40,177 nt of DNA from Verrucomicrobiota bacterium (lineage in GTDB: Bacteria; Verrucomicrobiota; Verrucomicrobiia; Limisphaerales; AAA164-E04). The notes under the pieces are model-generated. The model searched no databases. It was not told where the DNA came from and worked only from the letters and a program-made list of their open reading frames with translations. The position numbers and the translations under genes are program-made. The stretch is from positions 1 through 40,177 of the forward strand of contig JALRAZ010000195.1 in assembly GCA_023257935.1 (NCBI GenBank), read 5' to 3'. Positions 35,147-38,844 of the stretch are shown here, one piece after another (positions within the stretch are counted from its first letter, which is position 1; the number at the start of each line of letters is the position of its first letter).

Positions 35147-35335
35147 GTAGATGATCTCATCAGAAAACTTTCTTAAAAAGCAAGCTTGGGAAGAGCTTTA
35201 CTCTGACCTGATGTCATGGTTGCTTTGCCTTCCCGGAGAGGGGGCGAATCGATGCATCGCAACCAACTCAACTCGGGGGCAAAGGTTCGAATCGATGATT
35301 GCCTGAGATCATTGAGGTCCCTAGTATTGAGGATC

Positions 35336-38332
35336 ATGGACCAACCAGCCAGCACAACAAGGCGCACAGGCCAGCACCCCATCATCCAGTGGATAGGCCT
35401 GCTGCTTACGGTCATGCTTCTTCCTTTTGAATCCTTGATGGCAGGACCAGACAAAGATGTGATCCACGCACACTGGTTGTTTGCCTCTCACCGTAAACAG
35501 GGTCACAAGTTACTGCCCCTGGCCGGAGGTCCTAGGATCGAGTTACGAGGTCCAATAGTCTTGGCGGATGATCCCCTGCCACCCCGCGTCGACCTAAAGC
35601 AATCGGCAGGAAGGCTTTTTCTTGCGGACAAACAAACCGACGCAAGCCTCCCGCCAGATCTTTTCTGCATTGAAGCCTGGGTAAGGATCGATGAGGTCGA
35701 TCAATCCGGAGGAATCATCAGCGCCACCCATCCCGAGGGGGTCACCAAAGGTGGCTGGCATCTTGGTCACCAAGGTGGGCGGCTTGAATTTTCAATCTTG
35801 CCTGACCACCAAACTTTACCGCTGACATTGAAGGCCGGTGCGCTGTTGAAAGCCAGTCAGTGGCATCACATCGTGGTCAATGTAGGGCCGGAACAATTAG
35901 CACTTTGGGTCGATGGTGAGCCAGAGGGTGAGGTCCCTCGCCCCAAAACCACCATCAAATATCCGGAATCGCTTCATTATGAATTGGGTAATTGGATTCA
36001 GGAAGGGAGCGTCCAGCCCCTCAAGGGATCCCTCCACGAAGTCTATCTGCTGAACCAACCAGCCAGCATGGAGGCAATTCAGGAACGTCATCAGGCACGT
36101 AAGGCCTATTTCCCACTGGCGGGACCAGAGCCTATCATCATGCCCATCGCTTTGGGGCCTTTCGTAGACTGGACAGGCAGGACAAGTGTCCGCATCAGCT
36201 GGAATTGCGATGAGGAAATGCCAACGCGAGTCGACCTGATGGGTCCTGAGGGAGAGTTCAGAGAATTTGCTTCCCCCACGCTCAGTGAGAAACATCAAGT
36301 CGAGTTTAACAACATCCAAATAGATGGAGAATACTCGTTCCGAATCCACGGACCCATGGTAGGCAAGCAAGCTCAATTCAGTCAGCTTTATCGCTTTGAT
36401 AGTTCATTCTACTACGCCCCACTGGAACCGGCTTCCCCCCAACCAGAGGGAGCCCCAATCACAGTGAGCAGCAAGCTCACAGAGCAGATGACTGCCTTGC
36501 TCAACACAACCGAAAACGACAAAGGATTTGCTCTGATCATCGGGGCTTCAAGCCAACAACTCATGCGTGCAAGCGCTCTGGCAAAGCTGAGTCAGCTCAA
36601 AATCATTCTGGTGGATGAATCAGCATCGGCCGTTGCTGATGCCAGAGCCAAATTGGACGCAGCCGGTCTCTACGGAGAACGGGTTTCTGTGCATCACAGT
36701 GAGCTAGACTCCCTGCCCTACGGCCCATTCTTTGCCAACCTGATTTTGGTCGAAGAAACAAACCACCTGACCCATAGCTTGGATATCAATCAAAGACTCA
36801 AGCAACTAGCCAGACACCTCAGACCAGCAGGCGGATCCCTCTGTATCCATCGCTCAAACCCATCAAGCGTGACCGACGCTGAGCTTGAGACGGCCCTAAG
36901 CTCCCTCGATCTGAAAACTGAATCCTCTGGTGTGGCGAATAACTGGTGGCTGGCCAGACGAGGCATTCTGCCTGGTTCAGGGGATTGGAGTCATCAGTAT
37001 GGTGGGGCAGACAATTCCTCGTGCAGTCAGGACGAACTGGTTTCTGGCGAATTGGGGGTCCTTTGGTGGGGGGACCCAGGCCCACGCCCCATGCCTGATC
37101 GAGGCCCCCGCAATCCAGCCCCGATATCCGTCAATGGAAGGCTTTACATTCAGGGGGATCGAATTCTTTTTGGCTTGGATGCCTATAATGGAACCATTCT
37201 GTGGAATTATTTTAGCCCCGAAATGAGACGAGCCAACTTGCCGCGAGACTGCAGCAACATGATCGGGACCCACGACTATCTCTACGTGGCACAGGGGCGT
37301 CACTGCCTTGGGATTGAAGGTCACACCGGGCGGCGCGAGCTGATCTTCGAGACATTTTCTGAGGGTCAATCCCGGTCCATGGACTGGGGCTACCTGGCCA
37401 CCTACCGTGACATGCTCATCGGAAGCAGTGTGAAGGCAGGTTCGGGTTACCTTGGAGACGATGGGGAGTGGTTTGAGGATGATCACCCTGAAGATATCAG
37501 TCGGGTTGTCAGTGCTCATCTTTTTGCCGTGGATCGGCATGATGGCAATTCACTCTGGTCCTACACGGGTGGGGCCATCATCAATTCAACCATCACCATC
37601 GGGGATGAAGAAATTTTTTTCCTGGAGAGCCAAAATCCTGCAGCCATTCATGCTGAAACCGGAAGGCTTAAACCCGAAGAACTCACTGATGTCCGGCTGG
37701 TGTGCCTGGATCTTAGAAGCGGCAAGCAGAGTTGGGAGCGAGTTCATGATTTCAGTGATTGTCGGTTCATGACCTACATGACCTACAGCAATGATACCCT
37801 AGTTGTGGCTGGCGCAGACAAGGACAAACACTATCATACCTATGCCTTCAACACACGCCCCCAGTCCTCGGGTGGGCTCGATCAATCCTCACCACCTTTG
37901 GCAGCCGGATCCTTGCTCTGGGAGGAAAGTCATGAAGCGGGCAAAAATCATCATAGTGGTCATCTACAGCATCCTGTGGTCATTGGTGACACCTTCTACT
38001 CTGACCAGCGTGCCTTCAACCTGCGGGATGGTGCCTTGCTACGTAGCGACCTTCCCGAGCGACGCGGTTGCGGCACCATGTCTGCAGCCCTCAATAGCAT
38101 TTTCTACCGTCATTATTACCATGGCCAGTGGGATCTGCAGAGCAACCGTCGCACTCAATTCGAAGGCCTTCGCAGCGGGTGCTGGCTAGGCATGATTCCG
38201 GCAGGCGGACTGCTACTGGCCCCGGAAGCCAGCGCGGGTTGCTCCTGCGAGAATGCCATCCAAACCTCAGTCGGTTATCTGCCCAAGTCTCTGGATCCAG
38301 CCATGACCAGTCGATCGGTCCTTTCGCGGTGA
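35336..38332 (+). CDS. Large exported LamG / methyltransferase-like / PQQ beta-propeller protein
   Basis: The 998-aa multidomain protein runs in this order. Signal segment near 18-35 (IQWIGLLLTVMLLPF). LamG/concanavalin-like domain, about 105-242 (FCIEAWVRIDEVDQSGGIIS). FnIII/phosphatase-N-terminus-like strand region, about 275-355 (GRTSVRISWNCDEEMPTRVDL). Rossmann methyltransferase-like region, about 395-522. Then a PQQ/BamB-type propeller to the end (LDAYNGTILWNYFSP; VDRHDGNSLWSY) with a Cys-rich GCSCENAIQTS near the C-terminus. The nucleotide loop reads IIGASSQQL, without the glycines of a SAM site, so that domain is probably not catalytic. ATG 35336 fits the signal peptide best; ATG 35252 has a better Shine-Dalgarno (GGAG) and would add 28 residues, and 35216 is also open. 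The architecture is known in planctomycetes and verrucomicrobia; the function is unknown. Confidence 0.82.
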   Translation: MDQPASTTRRTGQHPIIQWIGLLLTVMLLPFESLMAGPDKDVIHAHWLFASHRKQGHKLLPLAGGPRIELRGPIVLADDPLPPRVDLKQSAGRLFLADKQTDASLPPDLFCIEAWVRIDEVDQSGGIISATHPEGVTKGGWHLGHQGGRLEFSILPDHQTLPLTLKAGALLKASQWHHIVVNVGPEQLALWVDGEPEGEVPRPKTTIKYPESLHYELGNWIQEGSVQPLKGSLHEVYLLNQPASMEAIQERHQARKAYFPLAGPEPIIMPIALGPFVDWTGRTSVRISWNCDEEMPTRVDLMGPEGEFREFASPTLSEKHQVEFNNIQIDGEYSFRIHGPMVGKQAQFSQLYRFDSSFYYAPLEPASPQPEGAPITVSSKLTEQMTALLNTTENDKGFALIIGASSQQLMRASALAKLSQLKIILVDESASAVADARAKLDAAGLYGERVSVHHSELDSLPYGPFFANLILVEETNHLTHSLDINQRLKQLARHLRPAGGSLCIHRSNPSSVTDAELETALSSLDLKTESSGVANNWWLARRGILPGSGDWSHQYGGADNSSCSQDELVSGELGVLWWGDPGPRPMPDRGPRNPAPISVNGRLYIQGDRILFGLDAYNGTILWNYFSPEMRRANLPRDCSNMIGTHDYLYVAQGRHCLGIEGHTGRRELIFETFSEGQSRSMDWGYLATYRDMLIGSSVKAGSGYLGDDGEWFEDDHPEDISRVVSAHLFAVDRHDGNSLWSYTGGAIINSTITIGDEEIFFLESQNPAAIHAETGRLKPEELTDVRLVCLDLRSGKQSWERVHDFSDCRFMTYMTYSNDTLVVAGADKDKHYHTYAFNTRPQSSGGLDQSSPPLAAGSLLWEESHEAGKNHHSGHLQHPVVIGDTFYSDQRAFNLRDGALLRSDLPERRGCGTMSAALNSIFYRHYYHGQWDLQSNRRTQFEGLRSGCWLGMIPAGGLLLAPEASAGCSCENAIQTSVGYLPKSLDPAMTSRSVLSR

Positions 38333-38334
38333 AA

Positions 38335-38844
38335 ATGGGGCGCCCAGAGACTTCATCAAAAACGGCTCACCACCTGGCTAGCGCCGAGGGATGGCTTCTT
38401 TTGCATAATCCCATTGAGGCACTGGGCGAACTCCAGTGCATTCCTCTTGAGGACCGAAAAGACCTCCTGTTCCTTGAACTCAATTGGAGGCTGCATGCGG
38501 ATTTACAGGAATGGGAAGAGGCACTTAAGGTTGCAATCCAGTTGATCAGTGAACACCCTTCGGATACCAGTGGCTACATCCTCAGATCCTATGCGATTCG
38601 ACGGTCCAAAGAAGGTTCACTGGAAGCTGCCAGTCAGGCCTTACTGGAAGCCGCTGCCAAATTCCCCAAGGAATCGATTATCCCTTACAATTTGGCTTGC
38701 TACGCCGCTCAACTTGGCAATCTCAAGGAAGCACGAGATTTTTTGCGAATGGCTTTGGAGCTGGGCGATCGCCAGCAAATGATCCGGATGGCCAGGAGAG
38801 ATGAAGATCTCAAACCACTGTGGAGCGAGTTAATCAAGGGTTGA
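38335..38844 (+). CDS. Small TPR-repeat protein coupled to the PQQ protein
   Basis: The 169-aa protein is built mainly of helix-turn-helix TPR-like units (AEGWLLLHNPIEALGELQCI; LQEWEEALKVAIQLISEHP; then NLACYAAQLGNLKEARDFLRMALEL near 118-142). It ends with the ARRDEDLKPLWSEL motif often seen at the end of bacterial TPR proteins. No signal peptide is visible, so it is likely cytoplasmic unless the start differs. ATG is at 38335, two bases after the PQQ-protein stop. An in-frame GTG at 38329 would overlap that stop by four bases. The frame is open further upstream but inside the PQQ gene. The tight junction argues for a joint function, as a scaffold or partner; that is inference. Confidence 0.8.
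   Translation: MGRPETSSKTAHHLASAEGWLLLHNPIEALGELQCIPLEDRKDLLFLELNWRLHADLQEWEEALKVAIQLISEHPSDTSGYILRSYAIRRSKEGSLEAASQALLEAAAKFPKESIIPYNLACYAAQLGNLKEARDFLRMALELGDRQQMIRMARRDEDLKPLWSELIKG

Follow-up and report, generated by a model that had tools for sequence, protein, structure and literature searches.

An apparently exported bacterial propeller protein carries a methyltransferase-shaped domain with an eroded cofactor loop

The gene at positions 35336-38332 (forward strand) of the window, by which we mean the whole 40,177-nucleotide stretch of DNA that was analyzed, encodes a chain composed of a signal peptide, a LamG domain, an FnIII-like sandwich, a class I methyltransferase (MTase) fold, and a BamB/quinoprotein-like propeller. 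The host, a marine Verrucomicrobia-type bacterium, appears to export a propeller protein with an MTase-shaped domain in which the cofactor loop is eroded. Our preferred reading, to which we assign a probability of roughly 0.58, is that this is an exported, probably glycan-associated protein whose MTase fold is a pseudoenzyme module bound to the BamB-like propeller. Because the fold is real, its SAM loop has been lost, and the chain looks exported, a non-methylating role is judged from sequence to be the likeliest one for the MTase domain of the window protein.

The reading frame is open already from 35216; read from the ATG at 35336, the protein begins with MDQPASTTRRTGQHPIIQWIGLLLTVMLLPFESLMA, which resembles a signal peptide. 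The nearest relative (L001) begins MRFSKQKTLPLICLLILCMLIPAENPLAG at about the equivalent position with a clear signal peptide, and 35336 is the likely start of the window gene. The signal-peptide-like N-terminus (MDQP...LMA; 35336..35443, forward strand) is also the region where a full-chain model has a helix, at residues 15-27. With such starts in both proteins the chain looks exported, as the original prediction had it, and the predicted signal peptide would secrete it. Residue numbers used here count from the upstream ATG at 35216; subtracting 40 gives the numbering of the original prediction.

That the MTase fold (36470..36958, forward strand) is real, and not a chance reading, is supported in three ways. 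Pfam detects Methyltransf_25 at residues 453-539 (E 6.4e-6) with 27.2 bits, just above the cut-off of 27.0. For residues 393-605, an AlphaFold2 model based on 11 sequences (alignments used for models had 10-11 rows) has the Rossmann-like alpha/beta fold and the alternating beta/alpha order of a class I MTase, with a mean pLDDT of 76 that reaches ~90 over beta1-beta3 in the first half of the domain. When this model was searched against the PDB with Foldseek, 954 matches were returned at E<=1e-3, and almost all of the top 50 were SAM methyltransferases, among them 3dlc (6.6e-11), 3dh0, and RebM (3bus). Finally, an 11-row profile matched 3dlc among PDB sequences at 7.3e-7 over ~119 residues, with the eroded loop aligned to the GSGPG of 3dlc. 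Structure prediction and structural search, the check suggested in the original prediction, therefore did yield an MTase fold, and the MTase-like domain that had been proposed to lie between the LamG domain and the propeller was borne out by the Pfam and profile searches as well.

The domain resembles class I SAM MTases (Methyltransf_25/11; nearest solved structure 3dlc, MMP1179) in its fold, strand order, acidic residue at the end of beta2, and LxPGG motif. Unlike them, the window protein lacks the acid and two glycines of motif I, is fused to a propeller, and has a signal peptide. Several alignments place GASSQQL (36542..36562, forward strand) at the canonical GxGxG position, and where the class has D/E-x-GxGxG the window protein has FALIIGASSQQL. 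The glycines of motif I had been described as gone. This is correct for the second and third, which are replaced, and incorrect for the first, which is retained (F-A-L-I-I-G443-A-S-S-Q-Q-L). The loop is followed by a two-residue insertion in the window protein, L001, L002, L003, and L010. Alignments thus uphold that the window protein and its closest relatives have lost the SAM loop; the domain presumably does not bind SAM.

Well over a hundred relatives, one of them (L011) labeled as Planctomycetota, were identified in genome contigs and in whole genomes from the same family, order, and phylum. The architecture had been thought unusual; the MTase-propeller pair instead defines a large family that occurs in multiple copies per PVC-type genome. 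The host has two copies, and matching stretches number more than 10 in certain genomes of the order. The second host copy (L013; G000:C437:1508-4282) is more distant, has an extra PQQ-type propeller before its LamG-like region, and has a likewise eroded loop (GAARPAL). A literature search on PQQ and methyltransferase domains in Planctomycetes/Verrucomicrobia returned nothing relevant and no description of the MTase-propeller pair; the family is apparently undescribed.

Members were classed by loop state as intact (second and third glycine present), half-kept (first and third glycine), or lost. The 81 members scored comprised 21 intact, 30 half-kept, and 30 lost loops, and among 118 members that also carry the propeller the corresponding numbers were 32, 32, and 54, with the full D/E-x-GxGxG present in 12. 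On a 74-row tree, built by a quick method without removing the loop columns, the lost state requires 15 changes, of which well-supported branches force at least 12. Gain and loss are not separable from the tree alone; the direction is read as loss because the canonical loop is that of the MTase superfamily. The window protein groups with L001, L002, and L003 in a single supported clade in which the loop is lost, and the sister group of this clade is half-kept. The loop therefore appears to have been lost many times in the family while the domain itself was kept, and the census and the tree rule out loop loss as a feature special to the window protein. Judging by the sequences of relatives, loop loss is not a property of the LamG-MTase-propeller architecture either: in three members (L037, L164, and L167) the order of LamG, MTase, and propeller is the same and the loop is intact, reading DYGCGEG. 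The homolog alignment suggested in the original prediction thus gives a negative answer to whether the glycine loop is lost in all. Homologs of this architecture that have an intact loop and bind SAM had been named as grounds for abandoning the proposal, and these three supply the sequence half of that description.

Could the family consist of active SAM methyltransferases, with the window protein an unusual working variant? The 12 members with the full motif belong to long-branch clades, and L164 matches Methyltransf_25 in Pfam at 2.3e-11, both of which speak for activity. Against this, the window protein lacks two of the three glycines and has the two-residue insertion, and the LamG members with an intact loop have themselves lost the beta2 acid (GVTADA). 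In addition, the chains carry signal peptides, and there is no known SAM supply outside the cytoplasm. We consider this explanation very improbable. By a simple hydrophobicity rule, which is not a trained predictor, signal-peptide-like starts were found in all six complete loop-intact members tested, 8 of the 17 complete half-kept members, and 9 of the 12 complete lost members. A perfect DLGxGxG loop is seen over long branches in an exported PQQ-MTase-PQQ clade (L075, L080, L154, L155, and L156). The full-loop clades, meaning this one and the three proteins with the window architecture, might be exported binders of SAM or a SAM-like nucleoside that methylate or sense surface glycans, with the window clade a derived non-binder, an idea to which we give little credence.

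In MTases, the acidic residue at the end of beta2 holds the ribose, and the position after beta3 usually contacts the adenine. The former is retained in the window protein as D467 (36614..36616, forward strand), as had been noted originally. The position carries D or E in 85% of loop-intact members and in 70% of those that lost the loop, and D in 100% of the window clade. This pattern, along with the purifying selection on the domain described below, is what would be expected if the former cofactor cleft of the eroded fold bound a small non-SAM ligand (e.g. a nucleoside, nucleotide, or sugar), which the fold would then sense or present outside the cell. However, the adenine-contact position is not conserved in any loop class (D in 26-30%), and the loop sequences differ widely between lineages, which is not suggestive of one shared ligand. 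Binding in the old cleft is therefore regarded as unlikely, if the least unlikely of the alternatives.

Several observations bear on why the domain has been kept. It accompanies the propeller in 93 of the 99 propeller-bearing ORFs, the exceptions being six fragments. These loci came mostly from whole-protein or MTase queries, and some from a propeller-only search of ten genomes. Relatives differ in their N-terminal part, where LamG-FnIII and a second PQQ-type propeller replace one another, and extra C-terminal modules (3-keto-disaccharide-hydrolase-like, CBM96, or malectin) occur in some; the constant core is the MTase fold paired with the four-cysteine propeller. Behind the second propeller, the C-termini of L075, L076, and L072 contain chitobiase-C-type domains and a 3-keto-disaccharide-hydrolase-like module. 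For the MTase domain, which is under purifying selection, dN/dS was 0.05-0.21 between closely related members whose loops are degenerate; for the propeller it was 0.02-0.04 where well measurable. Residues G437, R477, Y486-G487, R489, P537, and G539-G540 are retained equally in loop-intact and loop-lost members, and the constraint therefore lies on the domain and not on the SAM loop; because these residues overlap generic MTase motifs (e.g. LxPGG), keeping them does not point specifically to a new role. Across L001-L009, the propeller is 61-85% identical to that of the window protein vs 29-53% for the MTase domain, indicating that the latter evolves faster. This lower conservation, together with loop loss that is repeated and uneven across the tree, would suit a relic in slow decay that has no present role and is kept only as part of a needed chain. 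A relic is nevertheless quite improbable in our estimation: the domain is never cleanly removed from the 99 propeller ORFs, its dN/dS is well below 1, and its core signature residues are retained over long distances.

Pseudoenzymes are well known as such, and we favor a role of this kind for the domain. With its SAM loop no longer needed, the fold would most likely pack on the propeller or have a binding site elsewhere on its surface. The analogy is with animal fatty acid synthase, in which a pseudo-methyltransferase domain is structurally important and catalytically inactive (PMC10764717). What the two share is an MTase fold kept without catalysis, and the mammalian synthase (2vz9) is among the fold matches. 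The animal enzyme differs in being a cytosolic megasynthase with neither LamG domain nor propeller, and common descent of the loss is not implied. The original prediction of a dead fold re-used as a ligand or scaffold module is thus plausible; the fold, the loop loss, and the exported look stood up, and the remainder is supported in part.

The C-terminal propeller (37016..38290, forward strand) is of the PQQ/BamB type, as predicted. Pfam detects PQQ_2 in the window protein with 28.8 bits vs a cut-off of 27.6, partial profile matches connect it to tetrathionate hydrolase, PQQ alcohol dehydrogenases, and BamB, and BamB (8orr) was returned in the fold search. PQQ binding, which the original prediction had put forward for assay, is not supported. 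Although quinoprotein-type repeats are present, scores against the NCBIfam model PQQ_enz_alc_DH reached 14-18 bits vs a cut-off of 480, and the translation of the window protein has no vicinal CC pair. A vicinal disulfide (Cys-Cys) lies at the PQQ site of enzymes such as methanol dehydrogenase; certain PQQ enzymes lack the pair, so its absence alone is not final. The propeller is like that of BamB or the "empty quinoproteins". The NCBIfam BamB model had no match in the window protein, with weak matches in other family members only, and the model for acido-empty quinoproteins (TIGR04528) has a cut-off of 650 bits vs 28.8 for the window protein. Likeness to BamB, the empty quinoproteins, and PQQ alcohol dehydrogenases thus consists of propeller repeats and partial profile matches, and the family differs from all three in having four invariant cysteines, no vicinal Cys-Cys, and a fused MTase fold. 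The cysteines (C952, C989, C1009, and C1011, in RGCG, SGCW, and GCSC; 38069..38248, forward strand) show no variation across an alignment of 16 members whose identities go as low as 26%, and they could form two disulfides or a metal site. In the alignments, the propeller is the best-conserved part of the chain. The original prediction had singled out the MTase-like fold as the best candidate for an undescribed function, which places the stress on a less conserved part than the propeller with its four invariant cysteines.

Toward the N-terminus, Pfam detects Laminin_G_3 at residues 142-289 (E 1.8e-15), defining a LamG (concanavalin-like) domain at 35639..36082 (forward strand). The FnIII-like beta-sandwich behind it (36152..36400, forward strand) is seen as strands 273-355 of the full-chain model; Pfam found no FnIII match in the window protein and weak Pur_ac_phosph_N matches at this position in L037 and L164. 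The full-chain model (pTM 0.52) comprises LamG, the FnIII-like sandwich, the MTase fold, and a low-confidence propeller, with low confidence at the join between MTase fold and propeller. Its best fold matches were generic LamG-type sandwiches, and BamB for the propeller. Kinship to the binding domains of botulinum toxin or to PAPP-A (~10% identity, rmsd >10 A, TM-score <0.2 of query) was rejected because such matches reflect the generic LamG-type beta-sandwich. A polysaccharide or some other surface ligand is the probable target of the LamG and FnIII parts.

A gene for a TPR protein (38335..38844, forward strand; TPR by Pfam) lies directly downstream, two bases separating its ATG from the stop codon of the main gene. 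A TPR gene follows the main gene in all five window-clade members seen (the window, L001, L002, L003, and L010), and its short product is possibly a partner protein. Upstream are genes for a sulfatase and a 3-keto-disaccharide hydrolase, which fit, without showing, a role in polysaccharide use. No shared gene neighborhood that might hint at function emerged: neighbors differ across the family except for the window-clade TPR gene and synteny with L001. In another branch, the gene (L008:8139-10928 and L009:8092-10881) is followed by one for a DUF1549/DUF1553 (PSCyt2/PSD1) protein.

In this large, apparently exported family of bacterial proteins, the SAM loop has disappeared around twelve or more times, and individual genomes carry intact and eroded copies together. 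The family would amount to a natural experiment on what an MTase fold does without its cofactor. It also raises the testable question of why a perfect SAM loop persists in some of the exported members.
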